A stretch of 23,052 nucleotides of DNA, taken from the NCBI GenBank assembly GCA_017381835.1, contig JAFOBK010000136.1, positions 1 to 23,052 of the forward strand, in the 5' to 3' direction. Under the pieces are notes generated by a model. The model was not told the origin of the DNA and made no database searches. It saw nothing but the letters and a program-made list of their open reading frames with translations. Each line of letters begins with the position of its first letter. Within the stretch, counting starts at the first letter, position 1. Source of the stretch: Oscillospiraceae bacterium (GTDB taxonomy: Bacteria; Bacillota_A; Clostridia; Oscillospirales; Oscillospiraceae). The position numbers and the translations under genes are program-made. Shown piece after piece: positions 1,577-18,744 of the stretch.

Positions 1577-1579
1577 GAA

Positions 1580-2668
1580 TTGGCAGAGAAATACAAGCAG
1601 TATATTCTGGATTTTAGGCTGCATGATGGAACCACGCACAGTGTTCCTTTCGATGTGCCTGTTGGTGATCCTGGTGTCCATTTTGGTTCTGATCGCCCAC
1701 CCGATACCGCAACTGTTTGGGTCGATCCCAACGGTGAACCTACCAGCACAGAGGATTGGGATTTTACGCTGTACAGTGGCACGACCGAAACAAAGAGAGT
1801 GGTAGTGGTTGGCGCAGAAGAGGAAAACGGTCATTCTGGTATTCTTAGGCTGAAGGATGAAAACGGAGTCTGGAGAGAAATTCCTGCTCTTGTTGGTCCC
1901 AGAGGTTTTCGAGGCGAGAAAGGTGTTCCCGGTGTTTACGTTGGTTCGGATACTCCTCCCGAAGACGCAATGGTATGGGTGAATCCCAACGGTGAGCCTA
2001 CCAGCACGGAAGACTGGGAGTTCGCCATGGAAGACGGCTCCAATGACACGAAGACCGTTGTTGTGGTTGGTGCAGAAGAATCCAACGGATACTCCGGCAT
2101 CCTTAAAGTCAAACAGGAAGACGGCACCTGGAAGGAGATCCCCGCCATTGTTGGCCGCAAAGGTGATAAGGGTGATCCGTTTGTCTATGCAGATTTTACC
2201 CCAGAGCAGCTGGAAGCACTGAGAGGCCCCCAGGGTGAACGAGGGTTCCAAGGTATCCAGGGCATTCAGGGAGAACGAGGTTTGCAGGGTGAGCGAGGTT
2301 TGCAGGGTGAGCAGGGTATTCAGGGCGAGCGAGGTTTGCAGGGCGAGCGAGGTTTGCAGGGTGAGCGAGGTTTGCAGGGTGAGCCGGGTATTCAGGGCAT
2401 TCAGGGCATTCAGGGCATTCAGGGCGTTCCCGGTGAGCGGGGTTTGCAGGGTGAGCGAGGCCCCCAGGGTATCCAAGGCATTCCGGGCATTCCGGGTGAG
2501 CAAGGCCTTCCTGGTGAGAGCGGCATTGTGACTCCTGTCAGCGGCTTCTTCACTCTTTCCGTTGACTCCGACGGAAATCTCTGGGCTTATTCCGAGGATG
2601 GCAATGCACCGAATTTGGAATATGACAGCGAAACAGGCAATCTTTATGTAGTACACGAACAGGGGTGA
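1580..2668 (+). CDS. Collagen-like tail fibre protein with duplicated module
   Basis: A 362-residue protein starting at a TTG preceded by AGGGAGGTG. Residues 1-30 are a short N-terminal segment. Residues about 31-116 and 117-202 are two copies of one module with an exact 86-residue offset; both contain [10 protein letters not shown], a VVVVGAEE strand and an EIPA(L/I)VG end, and each closes with a short Gly-X-Y stub. Residues 216-314 are 33 uninterrupted Gly-X-Y triplets dominated by GIQ, GER and GLQ, as in collagen-like phage fibres that form trimeric triple helices. The last 47 residues ([20 protein letters not shown]) look like a small C-terminal trimerisation or tip domain. Likely an elongated fibre or appendage on the virion. 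Collagen-like phage proteins are well known; the specific receptor is unknown. Confidence 0.82.
1670..2185 (+). repeat. Tandem 258-bp coding duplication
   Basis: Two adjacent 258-base units (1670-1927 and 1928-2185) encode the 86-residue module of the collagen-like fibre. Landmarks such as [10 protein letters not shown] and VVVVGAEE recur at exactly the same offset. The DNA has diverged at many third positions, so the duplication is not recent. Confidence 0.85.
2225..2521 (+). repeat. Gly-X-Y coding repeat (33 triplets)
   Basis: A 9-base-period repeat (for example GGTTTGCAGGGTGAGCGA units) encodes 33 consecutive Gly-X-Y triplets. A 72-base section (2396-2467) matches 2727-2798 in the next gene at 69 of 72 positions. 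Such repeats are prone to slippage and recombination. Confidence 0.9.
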
Positions 2669-2672
2669 TAAT

Positions 2673-3017
2673 ATGGCAACCGTTAAAACGTTAATTGGCA
2701 ACATTAAAGGCCCTCAGGGCGAGCAGGGCATTCAGGGCATTCAGGGTATTCAGGGTGTTCCCGGTGAGCGGGGGTTGCAGGGTGAGCGAGGCCCCCAGGG
2801 CAACCAGGGTGTTCAGGGACCTCAGGGCAGTACTGGCCCAGCGGGAAAAACACCAGTTAGAGGAACTGACTACTGGACTCCTTCAGATATTGCAGAAATT
2901 AAATCGCACTGTGATTCTATTATAGCTAGTTACAATCCTGTCGCTGTGCTTTCTGGTGTTGCTACCCCAACTTCTGATGTTGGAAACGATGGGGACATCT
3001 ATCTTGTAACGGAGTGA
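2673..3017 (+). CDS. Short collagen-like tail protein
   Basis: A 114-residue protein starting 4 bases after the first collagen-like gene; SD AGGGG overlaps the previous stop. Residues 1-12 ([12 protein letters not shown]) are an N-terminal cap often seen before phage Gly-X-Y segments. Residues 13-60 are 16 Gly-X-Y triplets, eight of which are almost identical at DNA level to those of the gene before. Residues 61-90 contain [17 protein letters not shown], a motif common in Firmicutes phage fibre proteins, followed by a short helix and a C-terminal segment with [14 protein letters not shown] character ([11 protein letters not shown]). Probably a second, shorter fibre subunit, or a fibre that shares a trimer interface with the longer neighbour. 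The precise role is not visible. Confidence 0.8.
2709..2852 (+). repeat. Gly-X-Y coding repeat (16 triplets)
   Basis: Sixteen consecutive Gly-X-Y triplets. The part from 2727 to 2798 differs from 2396-2467 at three positions only, including several synonymous third positions that are identical. This indicates a recent copy or gene conversion between the two fibre genes. Confidence 0.88.
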
Positions 3018-3023
3018 TGAATT

Positions 3024-3740
3024 ATGGCAGATATTGCAAAAGCTATCGCAAAAGAAAAAGAATACCTGGCATATCGCAGAAGGGGCGAAGAACCGTATCA
3101 CTTGGCTGATGCCATTAAGGAATGCGGTTATGAAAGTCTGACGGATTATTTCAAAGCAAAATCTGAACACAATTTTGAAAAGCTGAATTTTTCCTATATC
3201 GAAAAAAAACCCAGTGAGTGTATTGATTACTTCTTTGAAATGATGGATAGACAGGAAACAGGCGTTGTTTTCATTGATTCCAACGAACGCTTTGTTTTCA
3301 GTGGAGAAAGCAAGCCCTACAATGCGGAATACTGCCAGAAAAACAACATTCCTGTTTATCCGCTTTATACAAAGGGTGGTGCTATTGTAAGCGCACCCGG
3401 CGATTTTTCCATTGGTCTTTGCTTCCCAGAAACAGTCGGTGTGGATGTGCTCTTCATTTTGGACAAGCTGAGAAAGATCTTTGGAAAGTACATGGATAAT
3501 GTGGAAGTCAGAGGTAACGACATTCTTCTGAACGGTGAAAAAATCTGCGGTTCTATCATGTATCGCAGAAATGGGATGAAATGCTTTGCTGCTCATTTCT
3601 CTTTTGATGACCATTCAGAATTGATCGAGAAAATCTGCGGAATTTCTGGTTCTATTAAAGTTCCCACAGTTATCAGCGGGTTAACCGTTGCATTGTTTAA
3701 ACAGGCGGTGAGATTATGGCTTCGGGTATACTCTACTTAA
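3024..3740 (+). CDS. Lipoate-protein ligase-like (LplA fold) protein in fibre cassette
   Basis: A 238-residue protein with GGAG SD and ATG. Residues 1-60 are a helical N-terminal part (AIKECGYESLTDYFKAK). Residues about 62-215 line up with the catalytic domain of LplA and related biotin/lipoate ligases: FEMMDRQETGVVFIDSNERFVFSG corresponds to the opening segment, YTKGGAIVSAPGDFSIG (115-131) to the RRxxGGGAVxHDxGN loop, GNDILLNGEKICGS (164-177) to the substrate and lysine segment, with Lys173 at the position of the LplA active-site lysine, and AAHFSF to the HGTLL strand. The double Arg before the Gly loop and the HGT motif are not conserved, so activity may differ. Known family role: attaching lipoate or biotin to a lysine of a target protein. 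Here it may modify a virion or host protein, or be a structural reuse of the fold. The gene overlaps the next by 25 bases. Confidence 0.62.
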   Translation: MADIAKAIAKEKEYLAYRRRGEEPYHLADAIKECGYESLTDYFKAKSEHNFEKLNFSYIEKKPSECIDYFFEMMDRQETGVVFIDSNERFVFSGESKPYNAEYCQKNNIPVYPLYTKGGAIVSAPGDFSIGLCFPETVGVDVLFILDKLRKIFGKYMDNVEVRGNDILLNGEKICGSIMYRRNGMKCFAAHFSFDDHSELIEKICGISGSIKVPTVISGLTVALFKQAVRLWLRVYST

Positions 3741-4390
3741 GACCTAGTGCGGATATTTCTGTCGGGCATATTTTATACCCAGCAGGCAGCACGGCGGCCT
3801 ATCTATTGATTAACGAAGAAGTAAGTGACAACAACTCTACTTATATTCGGTCGAATACCGGAGAAAGCTCTGCCCCAGTAACATCCAAATTTGTTTTGTC
3901 CAATTCCAACCAGCCCTCTGCGAAAAATTACATTGTTACGTCTGTAATATTAAACATCGATCCATACTGCAGTAGCACTGATGCAGGAACAGCTTATAAC
4001 GAGTTTGATTTAGAAATCGATGGTGTATCGATGGGATTTAAGAACAGTTCTGAACCTTCAAAAGAAGCTATTATATATTTTACTGAAGCAATCGCAGTAA
4101 TAAACGAGTTTTTAGCAGTAAAAGGTACTCTTCCTCCCATTAAACTAACGGTAATTTCTCATGGTGGTGCAAATACAGATACAACAAAAAGCACGAATAT
4201 TTCCATAGGTATATCTCAGGCATACTTAGCGGTATATTATGACGAAATAACCGATATTGGTATTCATCATAAAGTTAATGGTACATGGTTAGGTGCTACG
4301 GCGGCATACCAGAAACAGAGCGGTGCTTGGACGGAAATCACCGCAGAAGAAGCAAAAACCATCTTGCAGAACTCCTTCTGTACAAAGTGA
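3716..4390 (+). CDS. Putative tail fibre / receptor-binding protein
   Basis: A 224-residue protein starting inside the 3' end of the ligase-like gene (25-base overlap, SD GGCGGTGAG). It is clearly richer in A/T at third positions than the genes around it, which suggests recent acquisition as in many fibre genes. The first 180 residues are predicted mostly beta (Ser/Thr/Asn-rich, with FDLEIDGVSMGF, IKLTVISHGGA and AYLAVYYDE strands), compatible with a jelly-roll or fibre head domain. The C-terminus, KVNGTWLGATAAYQKQSGAWTEIT followed by a short acidic helix, is a common closing motif of Firmicutes phage fibre proteins (two short 'G-x-W ... Y-x-K ... G-x-W-x-E-I' hairpins). The receptor is unknown. 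Confidence 0.6.
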   Translation: MASGILYLRPSADISVGHILYPAGSTAAYLLINEEVSDNNSTYIRSNTGESSAPVTSKFVLSNSNQPSAKNYIVTSVILNIDPYCSSTDAGTAYNEFDLEIDGVSMGFKNSSEPSKEAIIYFTEAIAVINEFLAVKGTLPPIKLTVISHGGANTDTTKSTNISIGISQAYLAVYYDEITDIGIHHKVNGTWLGATAAYQKQSGAWTEITAEEAKTILQNSFCTK

Positions 4391-4402
4391 GGTGTGAGTT
4401 AA

Positions 4403-6178
4403 TTGAAGTTTTCCGAAGTAGAAGCGGTGCGAGTCCCGAACGGCAGTGTAGTGGAAATTAAAAGTAAAGGCTTGGTGATGTGGGACAACTGCATTGGTCG
4501 GTACGTTTCTTTTGGTGACAGTATTGCCGCAGGACATGCCATCAACGAAGACTGGGAAAAAGATTACGGCGAAGGATCGCAGTATGGAAGGAACGGAAAT
4601 ACTGCAACGAAATTGGTTCCTGGCTGTTATACTGACCTGATTCGTGCGGATTTAATGGAGAGAAAGGGCGGTAATATATCAGTAACGAGCTATGCAGTGA
4701 GTGGTGATACCGTTGGCGATCTGATCGATATCCTCCATCACGATGGTGTCAGAAAGACTCTGGCAAGAGCAGATTATGTTACTCTCTGTATCGGCGCAAA
4801 CGATGTGTTGCAGCCAGCTTTGATGAATATTGACCAGTACATTTACGCTGGTGATTTATCGGGTATCACTGCCATGGTTGAAGCTAACTTGGTAAGGCTG
4901 GCAGATGATAGTTATGAAAAATCCTATAGGTCACTTTTTGATTTACTGGCAAGTATCAATTACCATGCGAAGTTCGTGTTTACTACAGTTTACAATCCCT
5001 ATAAGTACCTGTGGCTGGAAGAAAGTACAAGAGAACATGATTACAAGAACGGATTCTTAGGCCCTCTTATGTGGACTGTTCCTGATGCTTTTGGTGATGT
5101 AGCAGCTAATGCTTTCAGAAGAGCGTTTATTGAAACCGATATCGTCAGAAAGCTGTTTGACAGAGTAAATGGTGTTGGTGCGTGGGCAGAAACCCATGTT
5201 ACTGCTCTGAATAATATTCTGCGAACCAAGATCAACAACTACGGGAATGCAAACTTCCTGCTGGCTGATACCAAGGCGGTGTTTGACTGTGTGCCTGACA
5301 GAGTTGTTTCTGCACCAAAACACTACAACGACCTTGTGAATGTGGAACCCACTCGCGGGTATGTAGTCGAGGATCTGGACTGGGGCCAGTTCTGGGGGAA
5401 TATTGACTGGGCGAGTGCATTATCCAATATTGGAAACATTGCCAATGAAGTGATGGACAAGGTTCTGGAACATGTTATCCTCCCGGACATTGACCCACAC
5501 CCGGAATGGTACGGACACGAAGCGATGAGGTATTGCTTTGAGGATGCATTGGGCTGGTCTACCTTGACCAAACATACCGTTTCGTTCCATGCCAACGGCG
5601 GCTCCGGAGCGATGGACGCACAGGTAGTTACTGCTCTGCCGGGCATGGCGGCTTATGTTCCGATGTGGGACTGCGCGTATACAACACCTGGAATCGGCTA
5701 TCATTTCGCAGGATGGAACACTGCGGCAGATGGCAGCGGAACCACATTCACCAAGGGCCAGGTGGTTGCTATCGAGAGCGACATGACTCTGTATGCCCAG
5801 TGGACGAATATGTGCGTTATCACAGTACGTCACTCTTACGACTCTTATCTGCATGGCGAGGGCGACACCGGCCCCATGGAGAGCTACGCTTTGTGGATCG
5901 ACGGCACCGAGCAGCCCGACCTGGGTGCTTTCCGCAACGGCCCAAGAGTAATCACGCTGCCCTATGGCTCCCAGGTGGGCGTTATTGTGCAGACAAAATC
6001 CGGTTCTGCACGGTCTTACATCACACTGAACGGCGAAAAGATTGCCGGAAATTCCAGCGATGCGCGATGGACATTCAACGTGACAGGCGATATGGACATT
6101 CACTATGAATGGAACTATTGGATTGACGGAATCACACCACAGTCTTACTGGAACTGCTATGTGACTACATACGAATAA
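4403..6178 (+). CDS. Tail-associated SGNH/GDSL hydrolase with InlB-type repeat
   Basis: A 591-residue protein starting at TTG with GAGGTG eight bases upstream. Residues 33-370 hold an SGNH hydrolase: block I FGDSIAAG with nucleophile Ser40, block II Gly near 101 (VSGDT), block III GAND at 131-134, and block V DPHPEWYGHEAM with the Asp364/His366 pair. Enzymes of this family remove acetyl or acyl groups from polysaccharides or lipids. Residues about 390-470 match the Listeria-Bacteroides (InlB B) repeat: TVSFHANGG, FAGWNTAADGSGTTF, MTLYAQW. Residues 475-591 are a beta-rich C-terminal domain (ITVRHSYDSYLHGEGD start, WTFNVTGDMDIHYEW end). Most likely a tail spike or fibre enzyme that de-esterifies host capsule or cell-wall polymer during adsorption. 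The enzymatic residues are visible; the substrate is inferred. Confidence 0.85.
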   Translation: MKFSEVEAVRVPNGSVVEIKSKGLVMWDNCIGRYVSFGDSIAAGHAINEDWEKDYGEGSQYGRNGNTATKLVPGCYTDLIRADLMERKGGNISVTSYAVSGDTVGDLIDILHHDGVRKTLARADYVTLCIGANDVLQPALMNIDQYIYAGDLSGITAMVEANLVRLADDSYEKSYRSLFDLLASINYHAKFVFTTVYNPYKYLWLEESTREHDYKNGFLGPLMWTVPDAFGDVAANAFRRAFIETDIVRKLFDRVNGVGAWAETHVTALNNILRTKINNYGNANFLLADTKAVFDCVPDRVVSAPKHYNDLVNVEPTRGYVVEDLDWGQFWGNIDWASALSNIGNIANEVMDKVLEHVILPDIDPHPEWYGHEAMRYCFEDALGWSTLTKHTVSFHANGGSGAMDAQVVTALPGMAAYVPMWDCAYTTPGIGYHFAGWNTAADGSGTTFTKGQVVAIESDMTLYAQWTNMCVITVRHSYDSYLHGEGDTGPMESYALWIDGTEQPDLGAFRNGPRVITLPYGSQVGVIVQTKSGSARSYITLNGEKIAGNSSDARWTFNVTGDMDIHYEWNYWIDGITPQSYWNCYVTTYE

Positions 6179-6189
6179 CGGAGGCATAA

Positions 6190-7944
6190 ATGAGATATCC
6201 GACACTGAAAGAACTGCCGACGTCCAGGGAAATGGTTGATGTGTTCCGAGGATACAACCACAATCTGCGGATCAGCAACGGCGAGTGGTTCAATATGAAA
6301 AATATGACTTCGGACTACTATCCTGTGCTCTCTCCCAGAGATAAGCGCGGTGTGTACGCAAGGCCGGCAAGCCCGCAGGCTCTGATTGCCAAGGAGAAGC
6401 TGTGTTATGTGGACGGTACCGATTTTGTTATTGGTGACGAGCGCATCAATATGGATCTGTCCACGTCCGCACGGGACAACCCAAAAAAACTGGTATCCAT
6501 GGGCGCATTCGTGATCATTATGCCCGACAAGAAGTACATCAACACCGCCAATACGGATGATTGGGGAAATATAGAATCCAAATTCGAAACGGCAGGAGAG
6601 GTGCAGTTCACTCTGTGCAGAGTGGATGGAAGTGCATATGAGATTCAGCATTCTCAATCCTACGAGCCGGAGAATCCTACCTCAACAACGCTGTGGGTAG
6701 ATACCTCCACCACTCCAAATGTTCTGAAACAGTGGAGTGACAGCAGCAAGATGTGGATCGACATCGCTACAACCTACGTCAAGATCCAGTGTACCGGAAT
6801 CGGCAAGGGATTTGAAGTACACGACGGAATTACCATCAGCGGACTGAAGGAACAGGAGGCCCAGATTGCAGCACTTGAGGGTGCTGCAATCGTCTGGGAC
6901 AAAACAGACGACTACATTGTGATCGCGGGAATTCTGGATAAGAGTGCATCCATCAGCGTGCCGGTGACCATAAAGAGAACCATGCCGATTATGGATTTCA
7001 TCATAGAGGCTAATAACCGGCTGTGGGGTTGCCACTATGGCATGGATGAAAACGGTGAAATGGTGAACCGACTGTATGCATCCAAGCTGGGTGATTTCAA
7101 GAACTGGAACTGCTTTATGGGTGTAAGCACAGACAGCTACTTCGCAAACGTGGGTACTGACGGATACTTCACCGGCGCGGTGACGCATCTGGGTGCGGCT
7201 CTGTTCTTCAAGGAACATTGTCTGCACAAGGTATATGGCAGCTTCCCGGCGGAGTTCACGGTGCAGGACACGGCCTGCAGAGGTGTCCAGAACGGCTGCA
7301 GCAACAGTCTGGCCATTGTGAATGAGATCCTGTACTACAAAGCCCGGAATGCGGTTTGTGCTTACGATGGCTCCCTGCCTGTGGAGGTCAGCTATGCACT
7401 GGGCAACGAAAGGTATTATGATGCCGTAGGCGGTGCCCATGGCAATAAATACTACATCTCCATGTGCGATGCCTTTGGCAACTGGAATCTGTTCGTGTAT
7501 GACACATCCAAGGGTTTGTGGCATCGGGAAGATGATCTCCATGCCTCGTTCTTTGCTTCCTACCGGGGCGAAATGTACTGTGTAGACGCAGAAGACAGGA
7601 ATATTATTACCCTCTTAGGAAGCGGCCAGGAGGACGAGGAAGATGTGGAATGGATGGTGGAAACCGGAGAACTGGGAATCACCAGCCCGGATATGAAATA
7701 CATCAGCCGGATCACACTGCGCATGAGCATGGAGATCGGTGCGGAGATGAACATTTACGCACAGTACGATCTCAGCGATGAATGGGTGGAAGTGTGCCAT
7801 ATCCGTAGTACAAGTCTCAGAAGTTTCTCAATCCCAATCCGACCCAGGCGGTGCGATTTTATGCGTTTGAAGATCGAGGCAAAGGGCATGGGCAAGATCT
7901 ATGCAATGACTAAAACCATTGAACAGGGGAGTGATGTATCGTGA
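6190..7944 (+). CDS. Putative tail nozzle / stopper protein (beta-propeller-like)
   Basis: A 584-residue protein with SD CGGAGG. The N-terminus (VFRGYNHNLRISNGEWFNMKNM, then DYYPVLSPRDKRG) is the characteristic opening of large beta-rich tail proteins of Firmicutes phages. The centre and C-terminus carry blade-like repeats: NNRLWGCHYG, YFANVGTDGYFTGAVTHLG, ALFFKEHCLHKVYG, VNEILYYKARNAVCAYDG, NKYYISMCDAFGNWNLFVYD, GLWHREDD and RGEMYCVDAED. Each is a short strand pair of the kind found in beta-propellers. In short-tailed phages, proteins of this kind (T7 gp12, P22 gp10) form the nozzle that closes the portal. The family link is by position and repeat pattern, not by search. Residues about 480-500 form an acidic patch (GQEDEEDVEW). 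Co-transcribed with the SGNH gene 11 bases upstream. Confidence 0.6.
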   Translation: MRYPTLKELPTSREMVDVFRGYNHNLRISNGEWFNMKNMTSDYYPVLSPRDKRGVYARPASPQALIAKEKLCYVDGTDFVIGDERINMDLSTSARDNPKKLVSMGAFVIIMPDKKYINTANTDDWGNIESKFETAGEVQFTLCRVDGSAYEIQHSQSYEPENPTSTTLWVDTSTTPNVLKQWSDSSKMWIDIATTYVKIQCTGIGKGFEVHDGITISGLKEQEAQIAALEGAAIVWDKTDDYIVIAGILDKSASISVPVTIKRTMPIMDFIIEANNRLWGCHYGMDENGEMVNRLYASKLGDFKNWNCFMGVSTDSYFANVGTDGYFTGAVTHLGAALFFKEHCLHKVYGSFPAEFTVQDTACRGVQNGCSNSLAIVNEILYYKARNAVCAYDGSLPVEVSYALGNERYYDAVGGAHGNKYYISMCDAFGNWNLFVYDTSKGLWHREDDLHASFFASYRGEMYCVDAEDRNIITLLGSGQEDEEDVEWMVETGELGITSPDMKYISRITLRMSMEIGAEMNIYAQYDLSDEWVEVCHIRSTSLRSFSIPIRPRRCDFMRLKIEAKGMGKIYAMTKTIEQGSDVS

Positions 7945-8072
7945 CCCAAATCCGATATCCCAATATCACAGGAAAGACACCGGAGGAACGGCAACAGCAG
8001 ATGGAAAAATACATCCGGTATCTGGTGGATCAGCTTAACTTCGTTCTAAAGAACAATTCCAAAGGAGGATAA
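7941..8072 (+). CDS. Conserved 43-residue phage protein
   Basis: A short gene with a GTG start at 7941 overlapping the previous stop by 4 bases, SD GGGGAG (7927-7932), stop TAA at 8070. The product has 43 residues: a conserved-looking YPNITGKTPEE turn followed by one amphipathic helix (MEKYIRYLVDQLNFVLK). The same 'R-Y-P-N-I-x-G-K-T ... Y-I-x-x-L-V-x-Q-L-N' pattern occurs in small phage proteins next to tail genes in Firmicutes, normally unannotated. It may be a small trimeric coiled-coil adaptor, which is inference. Coding support comes from the exact fit between the neighbours, translational coupling and composition like its neighbours. Confidence 0.72.
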   Translation: MTQIRYPNITGKTPEERQQQMEKYIRYLVDQLNFVLKNNSKGG

Positions 8073-8075
8073 TGT

Positions 8076-8912
8076 ATGGCTTATGAGCAGCGACAGTACA
8101 CTGAGAGTGATGCTGTCAAGAAATTTCGTGAGAATATGGAGAAGCAGGCTGCCTACCAGAGCCAGTGGCAGCCTCAGATTAAGGACACCATGGACAGCAT
8201 CCTGAACAGGAAGGACTTCCAGTACGATGTGAATGAGGATGCGCTGTATCAGCAGTACAAAGACCGGTATGTAAATCTTGGTCAGCAGGCCATGATGGAT
8301 ACCATGGGACAGGCTGCAAAGCTGACCGGCGGCTACGGCAACTCCAATGCCCAGATGGTAGGCCAGCAGGCATACCAGGGTTATCTGCAGGGGCTGACGG
8401 ACAAGATCCCGGAACTGGCGCAGCTGGCCTATCAGAGACACGCACAGCAGGGCCAGGATCTGTACCAGAAGTACGGTCTGCTGAACACCCAGGAGCAGGC
8501 AGATTACAACCGCTGGCTGGCTGAACGGGACTTCCTTGCCAACCAGTATAACACCGAGCGTGGCTTTGACTATGGTCAGTACCGGGACACTGTTGGTGAT
8601 GATCAGTGGAAGGCACAGTTCGATGAAGATCTGCGCAGGTTCAACTTCCAGAATAAACTGGGCGAGTTTGCTCCCGTGGCATCCGCTGGTGGCGGTGGCG
8701 GTGGCGGAGGCGGCGGCTCCAGTGGTGGTAGTTCTAATAACAATTACCAGGGAAGTGGCTACAGATCTGCAGAAGTCCTTGTAAAAAATGCAGCGAGCGT
8801 AGAAGATCAGCAAAAAGTTATTGATAACGCAGTAAGTAAGGGATATGTCACATCCAAAGGAGCAAGCGATTTAAAGAAACTGGTTGGAAACACTACGTAC
8901 ACAAAAAAATGA
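8076..8912 (+). CDS. Putative internal virion/ejection protein with poly-Gly linker
   Basis: A 278-residue protein with SD AAAGGAGG. Residues 1-195 are helical and rich in Gln, Tyr and Ala (DALYQQYKDRYVNLGQQAMMDTMGQAA, GGYGNSNAQMVGQQAYQGYL, QRHAQQGQDLYQKYGLLN). This pattern is common in Firmicutes phage proteins encoded directly before a giant protein. Residues 205-214 are ten consecutive glycines followed by a Ser/Gly/Asn-rich stretch, forming a flexible linker. A C-terminal helical domain of about 50 residues (AEVLVKNAASVEDQQKVIDNAV, SKGASDLKKLVG) follows. Position before the giant gene and its composition suggest a DNA-ejection or internal core protein (the role of T7 gp14/gp15), or a tail-tip protein; this is inference. 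No transmembrane helix is evident. Confidence 0.6.
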   Translation: MAYEQRQYTESDAVKKFRENMEKQAAYQSQWQPQIKDTMDSILNRKDFQYDVNEDALYQQYKDRYVNLGQQAMMDTMGQAAKLTGGYGNSNAQMVGQQAYQGYLQGLTDKIPELAQLAYQRHAQQGQDLYQKYGLLNTQEQADYNRWLAERDFLANQYNTERGFDYGQYRDTVGDDQWKAQFDEDLRRFNFQNKLGEFAPVASAGGGGGGGGGGSSGGSSNNNYQGSGYRSAEVLVKNAASVEDQQKVIDNAVSKGYVTSKGASDLKKLVGNTTYTKK

Positions 8913-8922
8913 GGTGATGTAA

Positions 8923-11900
8923 ATGGCGGCAAAGAAGTCACCGGATGAAATTTTTGACGAAATAATGGCGAAGGCTTCAAGCAAAGGTTCCGGAAGCAGT
9001 TCTTCAAACAGATCTCCAGATGAAGTCTATGACCAGATAATGTCCCGTGCAAAGGCGGCGAGCCATGTAAAACAGGCAAATCGTTTCCTTGTTGATACGG
9101 ACAAGTTCTACCGTGCCGTTGATATGGACACCTCCGGCGAGAATCAGTTCAATGCTGCAGACTACTTTGAGGAAAGAAAAAAGCAGGCAGAAGAACTGAA
9201 AACCAGGGCAGCAGCTATGTCCCTGTATATGAACGATCATGCGGACTCCTTTAGCGAGGAGTCCTATGAGCGCATGATGAACATTCTGTCTACATTTGAT
9301 ACGGATGTGGACGATGTTATGAACCGGTATCAGCCCAGCATCAATGCCAAGACCGGCATGAGGGCCTATGAGGATGAACTGCTGGCGGCTATGGATCAGA
9401 GGCAGCAGGAGCAGGATCGGTGGAGTAAGATCATCGGTTTCGATCTTTCCAGAATCGGACGGGATAACAGTGGTGATTACGCTGTTGCAGACACCTGGAC
9501 ACCGGAGCAGCGGTACCGCTTGGGCATGATGCAGATGGATGATCCGTCCGTAGCCAGGGAATATGCCGGTCAGGTCAATGCAGGAAAAGACCCTTATGTG
9601 CTGCAAGCCAGAGCAAAGTCTATGGATCTGGAAGCGGAGAGGCGGGAGATCGACCGGCTGCAGGCGGAACTGGATGATTTCTATTGGAACGCAGACTATG
9701 ATGCTACTTCCACGAATGCCAGAAATGCATTCGATCAGGAGATCAAGCGCAGAGAGAAGGAAATCTCCGACAGAACCCAGTTCTATAACCAGGCAAAGCA
9801 GATGCAGGAAGGCATTCAGTTTGCCTCTGCTACCCAGAGAGATGACTTTGCAGCGAGAAGCGGTTATGCTGGCAGTGGTTTTGAGGTACCCGCCTTCGTT
9901 GAGGATGCAGATCCTGACGAACTGACCTACGAATATATCAACGATCCTGATATCCGTACCCAGATCAATAGGCAGACCAATTCTCTGGCAGCAAAGGGCT
10001 ATGATCTGCTGAATGAGGAAGAGGTCGGAATCTACAATTACTACTATGCCACTGAAGGCCCCGCGAAGGCGCAGCAGTATCTGAATAACATCCAGGACAC
10101 GCTGAATCAGCGCATTGGTGAACGTGGAGCAGAAACCAAGCAGGGTAATATCTGGAAGCAGCTTATGGCCGGTGCAATTTCCGATTACAGTAATGCGGTT
10201 ACTGCTCCTCAGTATTTCTTTGACAAAGATTCCGACCACATCAACACCAATCCTTCCCAGTATATGTCCGCAGCTATCCGGGAGGATCTTGCTGATACCG
10301 GTCCTGTGCTTCCAGGTGTTCCTGGCGGCGCATCTCTGGGACAGATTGCGTTTGATCTGGTAAACACCACAGCAAACATGGCACCTTCTATTCTGTTGTC
10401 TACAGCAGCAAATGCAGTTCTGCCGGGATCTGGTGCATTTATTGGTGCAGCTACAATGGGCCTGTCATCTGCCGGCGGTGCCTATCAGCAGGCACTGAAT
10501 GCAGGATACTCCAAGAAACAATCCAGAGCCTACGCAGCACTGTCCGGTGCCTCTGAAGCCGGTATGGAATACTTACTTGGCGGTATCAGCAAACTGGGCG
10601 GAGAAATCCCTCAGAAGGTTCTGAGCGATATTGTAAGAGGCGTGGATAATGCCATCGCCAAAGCTGCCCTTACTATCGGCGGGGATATGGTATCCGAAGG
10701 TTTCGAAGAAGGTCTACAGGAAATCATCACGCCCTGGCTTGAAAATCTGGTGCTTTATGCCGACAAGGATGTTAACTGGGACGATGTGGCTTACTCCACT
10801 CTGCTGGGCGCACTGTCCGGCGGCGTAATGGAAGGCCCCAGGGTGGCTGTGAACACCACCCGTGTGTCGAAAGTGGATAAGCAGCTTCAGAATCTGGGCG
10901 CGAAGGGAAATACCTGGGATCTGGCAGAACTGATTGTGAAGCACAGGTCCGGTGAACAGCTGAGCCAGGAAGACTACATCAAACTGGTTAAGAGTGAACC
11001 GGCCATGAAGATCCTGGAGGGTATGCGCAGTGCAGAACCTGCGGAGCCTGCTATCGCTAACATGACAGCAGAACAGGTGGATGAAATGAAACCTTCCACT
11101 TCTGCTGATGGCAATGCCATACAGATTTCCAGAAATGCGTCCATCAATGTTGTGGAATTTGCGGACATCAAGGACGGAAAAGCCACTGTCAAAACAGACA
11201 GCGGCACTGTTGACTATTCTGATGTCAGCTTTGGCACAGAAAAGCAGGGAAACCAGTATTTCGCCGTTGAGAGTCTGCCTTCTATTGATACAGCCCATGC
11301 CAATGATCTGCTGCGCACCATCCAGAATGCGGATGTGGGCAATGATACAGCAGAAGTGGTAGCAATCCGTGAGGCATACCGTCTTGGCTATATGGGCGCA
11401 TCTACCCGTGATCTGCGGGGCAGCGATGCCAATATTCTTCCCACCAAGCTGCAGGATCAGATCTACGACATCGGCAGACAGCAGAGATCCGCAAACGATG
11501 CTGTGAGGGCTACAGTAAAGGCTGTTCCGACGAAAGCAACCGGGAAGTATAAGAAGGTTATCATCGAGGGTAAACTGTCCAATCTGACCGGAGATGCCGC
11601 CAAGAAGCGCAAGGCTGAGATTGCCTACGTTGATCGTGTGGCAGACACCTTTGCCGGAACAGCTGTCCATGTATATGAGTCTTACGAAAAGAACGGCAAG
11701 CGGTACTACAAGGACAACAGCGGCAAAGAGCAGCTGGCACCCAATGGAAAGTATGTGAACGATGAGATCTGGGTAGACCTTAATTCCGGTGACAAGGGTG
11801 AGGGTATGATGCTGAACACCTTTGCACATGAGATGTACCACCACATTGAGAAGTGGAACAAACCCAAGGCACGGGAACTGGCTGAGTTCGTGGTCAAGGA

Positions 11901-14900
11901 ACTGGGACTGGAGAGCGTGGACAAGGCTGTACAGGCACAGATTGAGAAGGCCAGAGCAGCTGGATATGGCGAAGAACATTTCAAGGGAATGACACCGGAT
12001 CAGGCCCAGAATGAGGTCTACATGCGAGCCATGAGCGACTTTGTGGCTGACTCTCTGGAAACCATGTTCACCCGTGGTGATCCTGCCAAGGCCATTGCCA
12101 ATCTGAAGAAGGAAAACAGAGGCCTGTTCGATCAGATCAAGGCGTTTATCGATGAGTGGATCTCCAAGGTCAAGAAGTTCTATTCCGATAAGACTATCTC
12201 CCAAGAGGGCGCGATGGTTGCCCAACTGGAGAAGTTCGAGCAGCTGCAGCAGTTGTTCATGGAGGCCATGGCTGGAGCCGGTGAGAACTACAATGCTTCG
12301 CTGGAGTCCATTACTCCCGGTGAGGCTGGCATCATGGTGAATGAGGCTGGAGATCCTGTCGCCATGAGTACCGAGGACGGCAGCGTGATGCTGAGTATTC
12401 GCACTTACGAAGAAGACGGACGGGAAGCATTCCGGAAGTATCTGGATAAGTGTGTCACCAGCAACCGGCTGACCGAAGCGGAAGCCAAGGAAATGCGTGA
12501 CGGTATCGAGGAAATCTACAATACCTGCAAGGAATTCAAGGACAAGTATGCACCCTTCAGCGCATGGTCTGATGCCGAAGTGATCCGGGATACCCGTGGC
12601 AGACCTGTGTTCAGCGTGGTCACCCCCAACGGCGACTACAAAATGAACCTGGATTTCTCTCTGGTATGTAAGAAGCGCAGAACCCTGGATGCGGTATTCA
12701 ATGAAATGTCTAGACGGGGTATCATCGATGACTTCGAACTGGGTCAGAAGAGCGTGGTCAAGATCAATGAGATCATCCGCAAGTATGGTCTGGAGACTGC
12801 ATGCTCTCTGTGTTTTGTAGATGCCAAGAGATTCCGTCAGGCATCCATGGCAGATTCTTTTGTACGGCTCTACAATGAACTGGTAGAGAGTCTTGTACCC
12901 GAAGATCAGAATGGCAACATCGACCACTTCAATTTCTCCGGCTATGAAACCATCAAGAAAGTGGACGGCGGCATTGATACCTGGGCTAATTCACAGCTGG
13001 ACTTCTCCCATCTGGACGATGTCATGAAGCGGTACGGCAAAGGTACCGTGGAGCATAAGGCTGCGAAGTACATCAAATCCCGGCCGGAAGCCAGAAAGCT
13101 GCTGCTGCGTGGCGATTTCATGTCCTCCCAGGGCTTTGATGCAGTGAAGACCCAGAACAAGGACATTCTGAAACTGTACAACTCCAAGAAGGGCACCGGC
13201 GGCCCAAAGGCTGCGTTCGGTGATGTGCAGTATCTGAACGAGATCATCAAGAAGGAAAGAACCTGGACTCCTTCCAAAGCCTATGAGGTTGGCGGCATCA
13301 GAATTCAGTCTTTCTCTGATTACGTTCCCAGAATGGTATTCGACTACACCCAGATGATCTACGATCTGGCTGCGAGAAAGCTGCCTGCTCATGCCTACAC
13401 CAAGGAATCCCTGTTCGTAAAGCAGTTTGGTCTGACCGGCGTGAAGATCAACATGTCCCTGATCCCTGCGGTGGCAGAGGGCGGCATTGCTGCCGGTCTG
13501 GATGCCAAGGGTAACTATGTCTGGGCAGGAGAGTCTTTCAACTACGATGAGGCTGTGGAAATTCAGAATACAGAAGGCTATTCCGAAAACTGCGGTACCA
13601 TCTGCGTGGGTGTTTCCAAGCAGCACATCGAAAAGCTGCTGAGAGATCCCAACATCCGCATGGTTATTCCTTACCACAAGTCCGGTCTGAATCCCATCGT
13701 GGCCCACATGAACAAGATTGCAGAGTTCACGGACTACACCAACGACCAGAGAACCAAGGGCAAGGACGGCAAGGCGGTCAGCAAGGACTTCAACTTCAAC
13801 GAAGCAGTGAAGAGAACCGGCGATCCCAAGGCCGCTGCCGATGAATATCTGAAGTGGTGCGCAGACAACGGTTATACCGCCAAGTTCGATGAGTTCAAGG
13901 GAGAGGATAACTACTACAAACTGCTGGAGGACTTCACCCTTTACGACAAGGACGGCAAGTACGTTCCACAGCGTGAGGTCAGAGCGGTATTCCCCAAGGA
14001 GGGAAATGCGTTCGGCACCATGAAGGATCTGATCAAGGCTGGTCTGGAAGAGGATGCCATCGTTGAGGGCAAGCGGGACAAGAATCTGTCTTCCATCGTG
14101 GATGAGATCCAAAAGACCCTGCCCAAGACTGAGGCTGAGATCAGCGAGGAGCAGGTGGCACAGGCAGACCGGGATTTGGAGGCATTTTCCCTCCGCAATG
14201 AAAAACTGACGAATCGGCAGATTCTGGAGCAGCTGGACATTGCCAAGCGGAAGCCATGGGAGAGGGATCACCTTCAGCGGTACCAGGAACGCAGAGAACT
14301 TCTGAGCCAGGAGAAACCCAAACTGGATACCGTGAATGCACGGATCAAGGAACTGTCCGCAGATCCCAAGCAGAACAAAGCAGAACTGACTCAGCTGAAG
14401 GCAGAGGCCCGTGCGCTGAAGCGCAGCGTGGACTCTCTGAGCCGTAAGATCCGGGAGCAGGAACAGTCTGAGATGTTCAAAAGAATCGCGACTGAGGAAC
14501 GGCTGCGGCTCATGAAAGAGACTGGGAAGAATGCGCAGAAGTCTTATAAGAATGAGCAGCGCAAGATGGTTGAGGCCATGAACATGGATCAGAGAATGAT
14601 TCGTGAGATGCTGACTGGCACTCAGAGTCTGATGAGCCGGATGGAGGATAACTTCATCGATCTGGTAAAGGCTTATGAGAACAAGGAAATTGACCGTAAT
14701 ACCATGCGGACAATGTTTGTGCAGCTGGGACAGGAATATGACCAGCAGACCAAGGATACCAAGATCTGGGATAGAGAGTTCAGCCGTCTGATGAAGATGT
14801 ATGACGAACTGTCCGAAAAGTACATTAAAGACACCGGTGATGCCAAGAAAAAGATCGAACGGCTGGAGGCGACCATTGCTAAACAGAGAGCAGATGCCAT

Positions 14901-17900
14901 TGAGAGAACCAAGGCAAGGGCAGAATCTGCGGAAGTTCAGAAACAGCGCAAGCATGTGGAAGATAACGCAAAGAAGCTGATGAAGATTCTCGCAAATCCC
15001 ACGAAGGATGCACACGTTCCAATGGCACTGCAGGAACCACTGCAAAAATTCCTGGACAGTATCGACTTTACTTCCAATCGGTATGCTTCTGGTGGCTCTG
15101 CAACCATCAAAGACAGATCTTACACCAATGCACTGGCTAAAGTCCGTGATGCGATCAAGGGTCAGAGAACGGCGTTAACTTCCGAAGATGGCGTATTTAC
15201 GCTGGACGTTCCTCCGGAGTTTACTGACGAAATTGATAAGCATATCAAAATGGTCAGTGATGCTACAGAGGGACTGGATCTGACTACTAAGCGAGTTTAT
15301 GAAATGACCGGTGCGGAACTGAAGGATCTGAACTACATTCTGAATACCATCAACAAGGCTATTCGGGATATCGACCGGATGCACATGCAGGGTGAAAAAG
15401 CCAGAACCAGCGGCCTTGCCAGGGATACCATGCAGGAAATGCAGAACCGGAAACCTATCAAGGGCGAAAAGGGAAACTGGTTCGTGTGGAACAACTACAC
15501 CCCGTTCCATGCATTCCGGCGGTATGGCAAAGCGGCTCTGAAGATCTTTGATGGACTCAAGGCAGGACAGGCGAAACTGGCGCGAACTATTGACTCCGTA
15601 GTTAAGTTCACCGAGAAAACCTATACTGCAAAGGAAGTCAAGGAATGGGAACGCACCCGGCATGAAATCAAGCTGGATTCCGGTAAGACCGTTACAATGT
15701 CTTCTGCGCAGATCATGACCTTCTGGTGTCTGAGCCACAGAGACCAGGCAATTCCCCACATGCATGGAGCCGGTATCCGCATGACTACTCTGGAGAAGTT
15801 TGTCAACAAGGCAAATTCCCAGAACGAACTGGTGCAGAAGGATCACTTCTCTCTGACACTGGAGGATGTGAACAGAATCAATCAATTGCTGACAGATCGT
15901 CAGCGGACGGTTGCCCGTGAGATGCAGCAGTTTATGCAAAACTTCGGCGGCAAGTTGGTCAACGAAATCAGCATGGCACGATGGGATTTTATGTCTGCTA
16001 CCGAGAAGGATTACTTCCCAATCGATACGGTAGAAACCAGCAGAGATGTGAAGAATCCGGATCAGAAGAAGACAAGCCTGTTTGCGCTTCTGAACAAGTC
16101 CTTTACAAAAGCACCAGTTCAGAACGCACGCAACGCTATGGTAATCGACTCCATCTTCAATGTATTTGCAAACCACATGAGCGAAGTTGCTGAGTACAAT
16201 GCCTTTGCGCTGCCTCTTGTGGATACAATGAAATGGTTTAACTACCGGGAGAATGTTGATGTTGGTGAAGGCCACATCCATGATGTAGGTGTGAACAGAG
16301 CCATTAGGGATACCCTTGGCACAGAAGCCATACAGTATTTCGTTGATCTCATGACCGACATTAACTCCAGCCAAAAGGCGGGACGGCATGAGGATTTCTT
16401 CGGAAAGATTCTGGGCAGATCCAAAGCAGCTAGTGTTGCTTGGAACACAAGAGTTGCTATTCAGCAGATCTCTGCACTTCCTCGAGCCAGCATGATTCTG
16501 AACTACAAGAGTCTGATAAAGGGTGCTTCGAAGGTCCGGCTGAAATATGCCACACAGGAAATGATGAAGTATTCCGGAATTGCACTGTGGAAGAGCATGG
16601 GCTACTACGATCTGAACGTTGGTAAGAGTGTGGAGCGGCAGATTAAGGGTGACACCAGTATCGTTGATAAGTTCAATGAAGCGGGCATGTGGCTTCCCGG
16701 AAAAATGGATGAGAGAACCTGGGCAAGAATCTGGATTGCTACGAAGGATCAAGTTCAGAACACCACCCATCTGACCGGTGAAGATCTTCTGCAGGCTACT
16801 GCAAAGAAGTTTGAAGAAGTTGTTTACGAAACCCAGGTTGTTGACTCTGTGCTTACCAAATCTTCCTTTATGAGAGATAAAAATCTGTTTATCAAGGAAG
16901 CAACCTCCTTCATGGCAGAACCTACATTGGCAATCAATATTCTGATGAGCGCATTCCAGGACTATGAGGAAGGCCACAGCAGAAGCGAAAAGGTGAAGCG
17001 TGGTCTGATGATTGGCTTCACAGGATATGCTCTTGCAGGAGTTGTCAACGCACTATTAAACAGCTTTAGTGATGCGTGGAGAGACGATGACGAATTCGAA
17101 GATTACTGGGAGAAGTACCGGCAGGCGTTGTTCGGAGAGAAATTCTTTGACGGAAATCTGTTCGGCGAACTGAATCCCATTGAGAAAATCGCATTCGTCA
17201 AAGATATCCTGTCTGTCGCAAAGGGAAATGAGCCTCACAGCACATATTCCAAACTAATGACTGATGCAGTGAATCTGATCAATTCTTATCAGTCTATTGC
17301 AGATGGTAAAGGTTCCAAAACTGCCTATGGTGTCGTGTATCAGACTCTGCAGTATCTCAGCACTGCAAGCGGTGTAGGCATGTCCAATATGACCCGTGAA
17401 GTTATTGATGTCTGGAATAACACCATCGGCAAAATCAATCCGGAAAAGCGCATCCTGCGGCACAAGCCAGATAACGGTGACGAACTTCTGAATGCGATCC
17501 AAAAGGGTACTGAAGAAGATATCCAGAGAGTCTTTGGTCGCTTTGAAAACCAGCAGAAGGCTGAGAGTGCCCTCCAGAGTGCCATCCGCGCAAAATATGT
17601 ATCCGGAGAAATGACCGCAGAGGAAGCAGAGGAAATGCTGACCACATACTTTGACCGGGACGATGAGTTCGAAATCTACTGGCTCATGGAAGAGTGGGAT
17701 TATGCCAAGGAAAACGACGGTTCCTCCGATGGTTATACCAAGTACGGCAGCCTGTATGATGCAATCGAGACCGGAGAGTACGAAACCGAGATCGCCCGGT
17801 TACTGGAGCATGGCGCAGATGCATCTACCATCCGCAGTCAGATCACCAGAGAATACCGCAAGCAGTATATGGCTGATGAAACTGCCCGGGAAGATATCCG

Positions 17901-18744
17901 TGAGAAGCTGTTGCCTGTCTATGAGGCAACCGGCATGTATGTGGATGACATTGAGGATAAGTTCAATGACTGGAACTTCGAAGCTGAGTACGGCATGACC
18001 TACGGCGAATTTAAGGCTGAATACCGTGAGGGTATGGTCACCGAAACCGAAATGCGTGAGGCGATGAAGTTCTACGGGCTTATGAACTACGAAATTGCTG
18101 AAGAGATTCGTGGTCTGAACGACGAAATCAAGTTCGTAAATCAGTACGACATGACACTCACTGATATGAAGGATGCCTACGATCACGGCGATGTCACCCG
18201 CAATCAGATGACCAATGCGCTGGTATTCTCCGGAATGACTCAGATGGAAGCAAGAGAATGGGTAAAGGAAAGAGATATTGAAAACCGTTTGGGTATCGAC
18301 TACGCCAAGCTGGACGATGCCTACAAGCACAACGATATTTCCAGAGCTACCCTGTATAATGCAATGATCGAACATGGAGCAACCAAACAGGAGGCTGACG
18401 ATGCAATCCTAGGCTATGACTGGCTGAAGAAACATGTCAATAGGTATCCTGATCTGGCTATCAGTGATGCGAAGAAGTTTGCTGTCAGAATCAGCACCAA
18501 TGCTCCGGATTACACTCTGGAGGACTTCGGTGTTAAGATTGATGATTACATTCAGTATTCCAAACTGAGACCTGACTGTAAGGGTGTTGATAGGAATGGC
18601 GACGGTCAAGCTGACTCTGGAACGAAGCGCGATGCGATCTTCAGTATGATCGATTCTCTGCCGATCTCCAGTGAAGCGAAGGACGGTCTGGCACTGATCG
18701 ATTACGGCATGAAGAGCATCAAGAAAAATGCTCCTTGGCACTAA
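8923..18744 (+). CDS. Giant polyvalent virion protein with zincin motif (3273 aa)
   Basis: One uninterrupted frame with GAGGTG SD. Residues 6-18 and 31-43 are two copies of SPDE(I/V)(F/Y)D(E/Q)IM(A/S)(K/R)A. Residues 45-430 are charged and helical. Residues 472-525 are a Gly/Ala-rich hydrophobic stretch, followed by more Gly-rich helices to about 640. HEMYHH at 969-974 is an HExxH zinc metallopeptidase motif; Asp1039 in SDFVADSLETMF is a candidate third ligand. Residues about 1150-1710 form a distinct domain with Cys1249, CSLCFVDAKR (1294-1303), YTK, NCGTIC (1556-1561) and IPYHKSGLNP (1582-1591). Residues about 1747-2030 are coiled coil. Residues about 2170-2760 resemble large polyvalent protein-associated domains (perhaps LPD38), with a hydrophobic helix at 2694-2713. 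The C-terminus has three helical repeats (3017-3164) and a DRNGDGQAD loop. Polyvalent phage proteins enter the host with DNA and carry effector domains. That role is inferred here. Confidence 0.8.
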   Translation: MAAKKSPDEIFDEIMAKASSKGSGSSSSNRSPDEVYDQIMSRAKAASHVKQANRFLVDTDKFYRAVDMDTSGENQFNAADYFEERKKQAEELKTRAAAMSLYMNDHADSFSEESYERMMNILSTFDTDVDDVMNRYQPSINAKTGMRAYEDELLAAMDQRQQEQDRWSKIIGFDLSRIGRDNSGDYAVADTWTPEQRYRLGMMQMDDPSVAREYAGQVNAGKDPYVLQARAKSMDLEAERREIDRLQAELDDFYWNADYDATSTNARNAFDQEIKRREKEISDRTQFYNQAKQMQEGIQFASATQRDDFAARSGYAGSGFEVPAFVEDADPDELTYEYINDPDIRTQINRQTNSLAAKGYDLLNEEEVGIYNYYYATEGPAKAQQYLNNIQDTLNQRIGERGAETKQGNIWKQLMAGAISDYSNAVTAPQYFFDKDSDHINTNPSQYMSAAIREDLADTGPVLPGVPGGASLGQIAFDLVNTTANMAPSILLSTAANAVLPGSGAFIGAATMGLSSAGGAYQQALNAGYSKKQSRAYAALSGASEAGMEYLLGGISKLGGEIPQKVLSDIVRGVDNAIAKAALTIGGDMVSEGFEEGLQEIITPWLENLVLYADKDVNWDDVAYSTLLGALSGGVMEGPRVAVNTTRVSKVDKQLQNLGAKGNTWDLAELIVKHRSGEQLSQEDYIKLVKSEPAMKILEGMRSAEPAEPAIANMTAEQVDEMKPSTSADGNAIQISRNASINVVEFADIKDGKATVKTDSGTVDYSDVSFGTEKQGNQYFAVESLPSIDTAHANDLLRTIQNADVGNDTAEVVAIREAYRLGYMGASTRDLRGSDANILPTKLQDQIYDIGRQQRSANDAVRATVKAVPTKATGKYKKVIIEGKLSNLTGDAAKKRKAEIAYVDRVADTFAGTAVHVYESYEKNGKRYYKDNSGKEQLAPNGKYVNDEIWVDLNSGDKGEGMMLNTFAHEMYHHIEKWNKPKARELAEFVVKELGLESVDKAVQAQIEKARAAGYGEEHFKGMTPDQAQNEVYMRAMSDFVADSLETMFTRGDPAKAIANLKKENRGLFDQIKAFIDEWISKVKKFYSDKTISQEGAMVAQLEKFEQLQQLFMEAMAGAGENYNASLESITPGEAGIMVNEAGDPVAMSTEDGSVMLSIRTYEEDGREAFRKYLDKCVTSNRLTEAEAKEMRDGIEEIYNTCKEFKDKYAPFSAWSDAEVIRDTRGRPVFSVVTPNGDYKMNLDFSLVCKKRRTLDAVFNEMSRRGIIDDFELGQKSVVKINEIIRKYGLETACSLCFVDAKRFRQASMADSFVRLYNELVESLVPEDQNGNIDHFNFSGYETIKKVDGGIDTWANSQLDFSHLDDVMKRYGKGTVEHKAAKYIKSRPEARKLLLRGDFMSSQGFDAVKTQNKDILKLYNSKKGTGGPKAAFGDVQYLNEIIKKERTWTPSKAYEVGGIRIQSFSDYVPRMVFDYTQMIYDLAARKLPAHAYTKESLFVKQFGLTGVKINMSLIPAVAEGGIAAGLDAKGNYVWAGESFNYDEAVEIQNTEGYSENCGTICVGVSKQHIEKLLRDPNIRMVIPYHKSGLNPIVAHMNKIAEFTDYTNDQRTKGKDGKAVSKDFNFNEAVKRTGDPKAAADEYLKWCADNGYTAKFDEFKGEDNYYKLLEDFTLYDKDGKYVPQREVRAVFPKEGNAFGTMKDLIKAGLEEDAIVEGKRDKNLSSIVDEIQKTLPKTEAEISEEQVAQADRDLEAFSLRNEKLTNRQILEQLDIAKRKPWERDHLQRYQERRELLSQEKPKLDTVNARIKELSADPKQNKAELTQLKAEARALKRSVDSLSRKIREQEQSEMFKRIATEERLRLMKETGKNAQKSYKNEQRKMVEAMNMDQRMIREMLTGTQSLMSRMEDNFIDLVKAYENKEIDRNTMRTMFVQLGQEYDQQTKDTKIWDREFSRLMKMYDELSEKYIKDTGDAKKKIERLEATIAKQRADAIERTKARAESAEVQKQRKHVEDNAKKLMKILANPTKDAHVPMALQEPLQKFLDSIDFTSNRYASGGSATIKDRSYTNALAKVRDAIKGQRTALTSEDGVFTLDVPPEFTDEIDKHIKMVSDATEGLDLTTKRVYEMTGAELKDLNYILNTINKAIRDIDRMHMQGEKARTSGLARDTMQEMQNRKPIKGEKGNWFVWNNYTPFHAFRRYGKAALKIFDGLKAGQAKLARTIDSVVKFTEKTYTAKEVKEWERTRHEIKLDSGKTVTMSSAQIMTFWCLSHRDQAIPHMHGAGIRMTTLEKFVNKANSQNELVQKDHFSLTLEDVNRINQLLTDRQRTVAREMQQFMQNFGGKLVNEISMARWDFMSATEKDYFPIDTVETSRDVKNPDQKKTSLFALLNKSFTKAPVQNARNAMVIDSIFNVFANHMSEVAEYNAFALPLVDTMKWFNYRENVDVGEGHIHDVGVNRAIRDTLGTEAIQYFVDLMTDINSSQKAGRHEDFFGKILGRSKAASVAWNTRVAIQQISALPRASMILNYKSLIKGASKVRLKYATQEMMKYSGIALWKSMGYYDLNVGKSVERQIKGDTSIVDKFNEAGMWLPGKMDERTWARIWIATKDQVQNTTHLTGEDLLQATAKKFEEVVYETQVVDSVLTKSSFMRDKNLFIKEATSFMAEPTLAINILMSAFQDYEEGHSRSEKVKRGLMIGFTGYALAGVVNALLNSFSDAWRDDDEFEDYWEKYRQALFGEKFFDGNLFGELNPIEKIAFVKDILSVAKGNEPHSTYSKLMTDAVNLINSYQSIADGKGSKTAYGVVYQTLQYLSTASGVGMSNMTREVIDVWNNTIGKINPEKRILRHKPDNGDELLNAIQKGTEEDIQRVFGRFENQQKAESALQSAIRAKYVSGEMTAEEAEEMLTTYFDRDDEFEIYWLMEEWDYAKENDGSSDGYTKYGSLYDAIETGEYETEIARLLEHGADASTIRSQITREYRKQYMADETAREDIREKLLPVYEATGMYVDDIEDKFNDWNFEAEYGMTYGEFKAEYREGMVTETEMREAMKFYGLMNYEIAEEIRGLNDEIKFVNQYDMTLTDMKDAYDHGDVTRNQMTNALVFSGMTQMEAREWVKERDIENRLGIDYAKLDDAYKHNDISRATLYNAMIEHGATKQEADDAILGYDWLKKHVNRYPDLAISDAKKFAVRISTNAPDYTLEDFGVKIDDYIQYSKLRPDCKGVDRNGDGQADSGTKRDAIFSMIDSLPISSEAKDGLALIDYGMKSIKKNAPWH

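Follow-up and report, generated by a model that had tools for sequence, protein, structure and literature searches.

FibLpl, an LplA/LipB-fold protein family of phage fibre-tip cassettes and a possible Cys/Lys acyltransferase

Gene content of the apparently inserted fibre cassette

The window, i.e. the whole stretch of 23,052 nucleotides analysed here (contig JAFOBK010000136.1), is from a gut-type phage and contains a fibre cassette at about 1577..6189 (genes 1580-6178, + strand). It lies between a phrog_12105 gene on the left (1145-1576) and an internal virion/tail gene assigned to phrog_511 on the right (6190-7944). The first cassette gene (1580..2668) encodes a collagen-like fibre protein that matched Pfam Collagen (E 1.4e-19) and tail-fibre PHROGs, and the second (2673..3017) encodes a short collagen-like fibre protein (Pfam Collagen, E 6.8e-10) with a C-terminal tail of the GDIYL type. 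The third (3024..3740) is an open ORF of 238 aa whose product is an LplA/LipB-fold protein, designated FibLpl. It is followed by a tip-type gene (3716..4390) encoding an ILxPxxDIS protein with a predicted jelly-roll domain (residues 1-177) and C-terminal K.NG.W / Y.K..G.W repeats. The cassette ends with a gene (4403..6178) for a GDSL/SGNH-hydrolase protein (Lipase_GDSL, E 1.3e-8) that carries a Listeria-Bacteroides repeat (Flg_new, E 1.3e-10) and could de-esterify surface glycans. A preliminary description of this DNA had placed FibLpl between fibre genes; indeed, two collagen-repeat genes lie upstream and the predicted jelly-roll and GDSL-hydrolase genes lie downstream. Outside the cassette, the product of 8923-18744 is a single protein of 3273 aa that matched nothing in Pfam at E <= 0.01 and is probably a giant protein of the virion interior.

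The site of the cassette was compared among related phage loci recruited via the gene at 6190-7944 (n=79, stretches of 4.4-21.8 kb rather than whole phages). FibLpl was found in 0/79 of these stretches. The two flanking genes were within 100 bp of each other in 74 of the 75 related loci holding both, whereas they are 4617 bp apart in the window; therefore, the cassette (1580-6178) looks like an insert at its site. Of these 75, only L027 also carries an insert there (7289-9412, 2123 bp).

The occurrence of the family in bacteria was also surveyed. Genomes sharing the order, the family or the class of the genome G001 were sampled in three overlapping draws, and FibLpl was detected at E <= 1e-12 in 1/394, 1/395 and 1/391 of them, each time in G001. 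Because G001 was the sole genome met and carries its own, separate LplA of 337 aa, FibLpl is a phage gene rather than a housekeeping gene. Recent capture of a host LplA was likewise rejected, given this restriction to G001 among the sampled genomes and the long divergence of the family.

The FibLpl protein and its active-site residues

The FibLpl ORF reads as coding: a GGAG stretch lies 5' of the ATG, only 6 nt separate its start from the end of the collagen-like gene upstream, and its 3' end overlaps the next gene by 25 bp. Pfam LplA-B_cat (PF21948) matched residues 68-193 with E 2.1e-8 and 34.8 bits, above the curated cut-off of 27, and structural comparison gave an LplA-type fold, with a lower Z for BirA biotin protein ligase than for LplA-type proteins. 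The order of LplA-type catalytic motifs previously read at residues 62-215 was thus borne out by the profile match, and the fold proved to be LplA-type, not unrelated. The divergent member at locus L080 scored 16.9 bits, under the same cut-off. Chance similarity to LplA was rejected, since profile, fold and conservation were concordant. The BirA profile TIGR00121 gave no match with the window protein (P0001) at E <= 0.1 and matched 1/67 members at this threshold. The GRGRRG-like motif is a motif of BirA; none was seen in FibLpl.

In a protein search with P0001, 66 of 304 candidates were accepted as relatives at E <= 1e-3; when ten diverse members served as queries, at least 567 relatives were obtained from 7998 scored candidates, the best 120 of the 567 being listed. 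The relatives listed have 233-253 residues, except for three fragments (205, 132 and 132 aa), and apart from these fragments the alignment spans both an N-terminal module and the LplA-like domain. Two relatives, P0031 and P0122, are named lipoate-protein ligase A at their source. Among phage proteins in BFVD, the uncharacterised A0A8S5URE8 (siphovirus ctg6c78, 229 aa) matched FibLpl over almost its full length (TM 0.88/0.91 and 33% identity across 231 columns); the shorter A0A8S5QKT7 (siphovirus ctVCm11, 187 aa) is named Lipoate-protein ligase A. PHROGs gave no good match for FibLpl; phrog_5195, of unknown function, matched the relative P0066 over residues 62-128 (E 1.8e-5) and was not matched by P0001 at E <= 0.1. 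Zero matches were obtained by tblastn with P0001, P0067 and P0066 against phages and with P0063 against plasmids; the phage search with P0096 yielded two Listeria-phage records that lack annotation (E 0.02-0.03). No relative was confirmed in scans of viral contigs with P0001, A1, P0067 and the tip gene, or in a scan of genome contigs with A1.

The N-terminal helical module (residues 1 to about 52-55; 3024..3188, + strand), with helices at residues 4-19, 27-32 and 39-52, lies outside the LplA fold. The 50 structural matches listed begin at residue 43 or later, mostly at 51-56, and none of those listed covers the module. It is nevertheless well conserved, with A7 in 134, E11 in 133, Y14 in 134, G35 in 136 and K46 in 136 of 137 aligned sequences. 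A search with residues 1-60 accepted 19 of 21 candidates, all of them already among the relatives found with P0001, and its 54-aa consensus gave nothing informative against Pfam and PHROGs. Lys46 (3159-3161) could be a self-acceptor of an acyl group.

Subsequently, the active-site residues were examined in an alignment of 137 sequences, consisting of 131 of P0001-P0134 (the fragments P0059, P0064 and P0065 were left out) and the members at L085, L112, L159, L086, L167 and L204. The residue counts are not independent because near-identical rows are present (e.g. L086/L167 and P0001/P0002). When members from eight phage loci were compared pairwise, identity was 25-40%, except for L086 and L159 at 93%. 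The following residues are encoded on the + strand. Gly118-Gly119 (3375..3380), the equivalent of the lipoate-binding loop, was kept in 132/137 (G118) and 137/137 (G119), the first Gly being absent from P0058, L080, L085, L112 and L204. The Asn165-Asp166 pair (3516..3521) was kept in 137/137 at each position, as were Lys173 (3540..3542), equivalent to the active-site lysine of LplA and to LipB Lys135, and K212. In the alignment, the E. coli LplA counterparts of G118-G119, N165-D166 and K173 were the GGG loop, the N-D pair and the active-site Lys, and related LplA chains gave the same placement; Lys173 was aligned to the Lys of both E. coli LplA and E. coli LipB, and to that of the Bacillota sets. 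The preliminary description had singled out these five residues, and they were found where it had placed them, with both the Lys and the Gly loop conserved in the family.

Other parts of the LplA active site have changed. The columns of the LplA Arg pair (RRxSGGG loop) are occupied by P113-L114 in FibLpl (Pro in 126/137, Leu in 111/137), residue 117 is variable (G 31, K 30 and R 22 of 137), and the LplA/LipB His column holds Ser in 116/137 members; the double Arg and the HGT motif, earlier described as altered, are thus replaced and changed, respectively. The His residues of LipB and LplA and the Arg of the LipB RGG are not conserved in the family, and the RGGxxTYHGPGQ motif of LipB is lacking in the 137 sequences. 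The SVRSRV loop of LplA has a role in adenylate binding, and this stretch is short in the FibLpl alignments. The C-terminal accessory domain is missing, FibLpl ending at 238 aa as compared with 338 in E. coli LplA. In comparison with LplA (PF21948; E. coli, Enterococcus and Listeria), FibLpl is therefore without the RR, the His, the SVRSRV loop and the accessory domain, and has in addition the N-terminal module and Cys205.

Cys205 (3636..3638, + strand) was present in 136/137 members, and its spacing to Lys173 was 32 residues in all 136 sequences having the Cys. PMC9307952 describes the Cys169/Lys135 dyad of E. coli LipB and its thioester intermediate, and both positions were recovered in the fetched E. 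coli LipB sequence. MAFFT placed LipB Cys169 on Cys205 and Lys135 on Lys173. The same pairing was given by hhalign under a permissive setting with six Bacillota LipB-type sequences and E. coli LipB. In another hhalign run with three LipB sequences, the Lys was aligned and the alignment stopped short of the Cys, and global mode gave no sensible alignment. The overall hhalign probability of FibLpl against LipB was 0.6% (E 0.1), versus 96.9% (E 1.8e-10) against LplA (11 Bacillota proteins and E. coli); therefore, the equivalence of Cys205 and Cys169 is local. A Cys and a Lys are present in FibLpl at the places aligned with the LipB dyad; FibLpl differs from LipB in keeping the LplA-like Asn-Asp pair.

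We also compared FibLpl with nine Bacillota proteins that we take, by their motifs, to be LipM-type octanoyltransferases. These are, like FibLpl, relatives of LplA (hhalign probability 78%, E 1.8e-5). Their conserved Cys, however, is located in an ACF segment before the Lys in 9/9, whereas Cys205 of FibLpl is located after it; compared with these nine sequences, FibLpl has neither the ACF Cys segment nor the RRxTGGRAVLH motif. Considering the good match to LplA, the poor match to LipB and the position of the LipM Cys on the other side of the Lys, the FibLpl family appears to descend from LplA and to have a Cys where LipB has its own. Furthermore, since Cys205 aligns locally with LipB Cys169 and the Arg pair, the adenylate loop and the accessory domain of LplA are missing, FibLpl looks, from its sequence, more like a putative Cys/Lys acyltransferase than an ATP-dependent ligase.

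Gene order around FibLpl

Four loci were found via FibLpl itself, namely the window, L080 (whose genes were met on another contig as L081), L082 and L085; the gene context described here covers the loci listed. L082, also recovered as L083, belongs to a Clostridia MAG from the colon of a water deer, and L085 is a 344-kb contig. By eye, other genes on the L082 contig look like fibre, tail and bacterial genes, so that a prophage is likely. In 4/4 of these loci, the gene preceding FibLpl ends with GxxxPxxxxG(N/D)(D/N)GD(I/L)(Y/F)L 3-11 nt upstream, and the next gene overlaps FibLpl by 13-25 bp and begins with MAxxxxLxPxxD(I/V). The tip genes are homologous between the window and L082 (E 3.5e-22) and between L085 and L080 (1.8e-60); for the window and L080 the values were 2.1e-7 for the whole sequence and 2.3e-3 for the best domain. 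A short protein of L074 (2034-2483) weakly matched the L080 tip protein (E 3.5e-4), probably through its repeat domain.

When loci were instead recruited by the GDIYL-type tail, FibLpl was found in 5 of the 120 loci listed (L086, L112, L159, L167 and L204), the tail being present by construction. In the four of these with a readable next gene, the ILxPxxDIS gene was found again, with an overlap of 16-19 bp. Consequently, an overlapping tip-type gene followed FibLpl in 10/10 sources with a readable next gene. These sources represent six lineages with 27-40% mutual identity (the window, L082, L080, L085, L112 and the L086/L159/L167 group). The neighbour survey that had been proposed for FibLpl thus found it in the same row of fibre and tip genes in six lineages. 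The tip gene of L112 is split into two ORFs (1176-1667 and 1674-2600), owing to a frame break or an assembly error.

A profile of eight tip genes matched no gene beyond the FibLpl sources at E <= 0.1 in 206 sources (L001-L205 and the window); its ten matches were the eight building sequences and two duplicates, so that the informative part is the absence elsewhere. The tip genes P0136 and P0137 gave no match against phages. The GDIYL tail was considered as a FibLpl-specific mark and rejected: it seemed exclusive to FibLpl loci in the first 86 sources (L001-L085 and the window) and was not so in the tail scan. There, 105 of the 120 loci listed had a GDIYL-type tail no more than 5 aa from a stop, with many kinds of genes behind it. 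Since the tail closes many fibre genes without FibLpl, the specificity lies in the tip-gene pairing alone. This fixed gene neighbourhood, the conserved N-terminal module and Cys205 are features beyond those of the preliminary description.

Possible roles of FibLpl

The computed features described above are the LplA-type fold, the Gly loop, Asn-Asp, Lys173, Cys205, the N-terminal module and the gene order of GDIYL-tailed fibre gene, FibLpl and tip gene. The kept pocket, the added Cys, the lost ATP features, the appended module and the fixed tip partner are best read together as a tip-serving acyltransferase. Hence, we tentatively regard FibLpl as a phage LplA/LipB-fold family of the fibre-tip cassette and, quite possibly, a putative LipB-like Cys/Lys acyltransferase for the tip. 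In such a reaction, octanoyl or a similar acyl group donated by ACP or CoA would be held on Cys205 as a thioester, Lys173 would serve as the acid/base, and the group would then be handed to a lysine on the adjacent tip or fibre protein, or to one in FibLpl's own N-terminal module (e.g. Lys46, present in 136/137), while assembly proceeds inside the host. The module may also dock FibLpl onto the fibre. Such acylation could contribute to adhesion, stability or maturation of the tip.

The retention of the residues across members of 25-40% identity argues for the acyltransferase. Several observations argue against it: Cys205 is missing in the divergent member L204, whose contig ends within the gene; the overall profile match to LipB is poor; the His residues, the LipB RGG Arg and, in five members, the first Gly have been lost; the GDIYL tails of the window, L080, L082 and L085 share no lysine; 115 of the 120 GDIYL-motif loci listed are without FibLpl; and fibre proteins with YxKxxGxW-type motifs are also encoded at loci without detected FibLpl (e.g. 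L149, L162 and L178). The C-terminus of the fibre tail was rejected as the acylated or ligated group because the tail ends differ (VTE, QTL, LLEE and KV).

The main rival is a non-catalytic role, in which the LplA fold of FibLpl would serve as a binding body linking the jelly-roll tip to the fibre with the GDIYL tail, or FibLpl would be an assembly chaperone that aids tip folding; in either case it might remain in the virion or be absent from it. Chaperone genes often adjoin fibre tips, and the position of FibLpl is fixed, behind a tail-tagged fibre gene and overlapping with the tip gene that follows. The N-terminal module common to the members and the loss of Arg and His residues typical of LplA as well as of LipB are also consistent with this role, which is a reasonable possibility. 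However, an active-site set is unnecessary for a mere binder, and yet G119, N165, D166, K173 and K212 are invariant and Cys205 nearly so at 25-40% identity.

An unlikely alternative in our view is a putative ATP-dependent lipoate/biotin ligase acting on host proteins (GcvH, E2 or a carboxylase carrier) and carried among the fibre genes as a metabolic passenger. LplA gave the closest profile, Lys and Asn-Asp are retained, the LplA equivalog gives weak matches (E <= 0.1) to 64/67 members, and P0031 and P0122 bear the ligase name. On the other hand, P0001 scored 18.1 bits on this equivalog (TIGR00545), below the cut-off of 280, the RR, the SVRSRV loop and the accessory domain are all absent, the same fibre neighbours recur in six lineages, and the genome with the L082 member has its own LplA. 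A virion-borne ligand binder or adhesin that holds a small acid, acyl group or surface ligand without catalysis would fit the location among tip genes and the retained pocket residues, and is very improbable, since a host-facing pocket should vary, whereas hardly any residues of FibLpl are better conserved than these. The earlier interpretation of FibLpl as a ligase or otherwise acylating protein, or an adhesin, among fibres is thus supported in part: the acylating role is favoured, and the ligase and adhesin roles appear unlikely.

LplA, LipB and BirA are cofactor-attaching enzymes of central metabolism. If FibLpl is a tip-serving acyltransferase, cofactor-attachment chemistry would have moved to host recognition or virion assembly, and its retention beside one kind of fibre-tip gene in very different phages raises the possibility that the fibres of some phages are chemically modified, or built, in a way not yet recognised. 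A broader proposal, which we consider rather doubtful, is that a large putative enzyme family with the LplA fold and a LipB-type Cys acylates the receptor-binding fibre tip and travels with it between podoviruses, prophages and jumbo phages; to our knowledge, this would be the first modification of a virus particle of the lipoyl- or octanoyl-lysine type. Among the papers listed in full-text searches of the open-licence literature, none was found that links a phage or virion to lipoate ligases, lipoylation or octanoyltransferases; in the passages of the phage papers PMC7996906 and PMC6139136 that use it, the word "lipoylation" denotes the lipoprotein signals of spanins, not lipoic acid.

The trio of fibre gene, FibLpl and tip gene forms a three-gene unit open to direct expression and testing. 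The GDIYL-tailed fibre end is marked as a joint for different tip modules, some with FibLpl; in the L086-L205 loci listed, the tail GN(D/N)GDIY(L/F) seems to be a general-purpose joint onto which tip modules can be exchanged.
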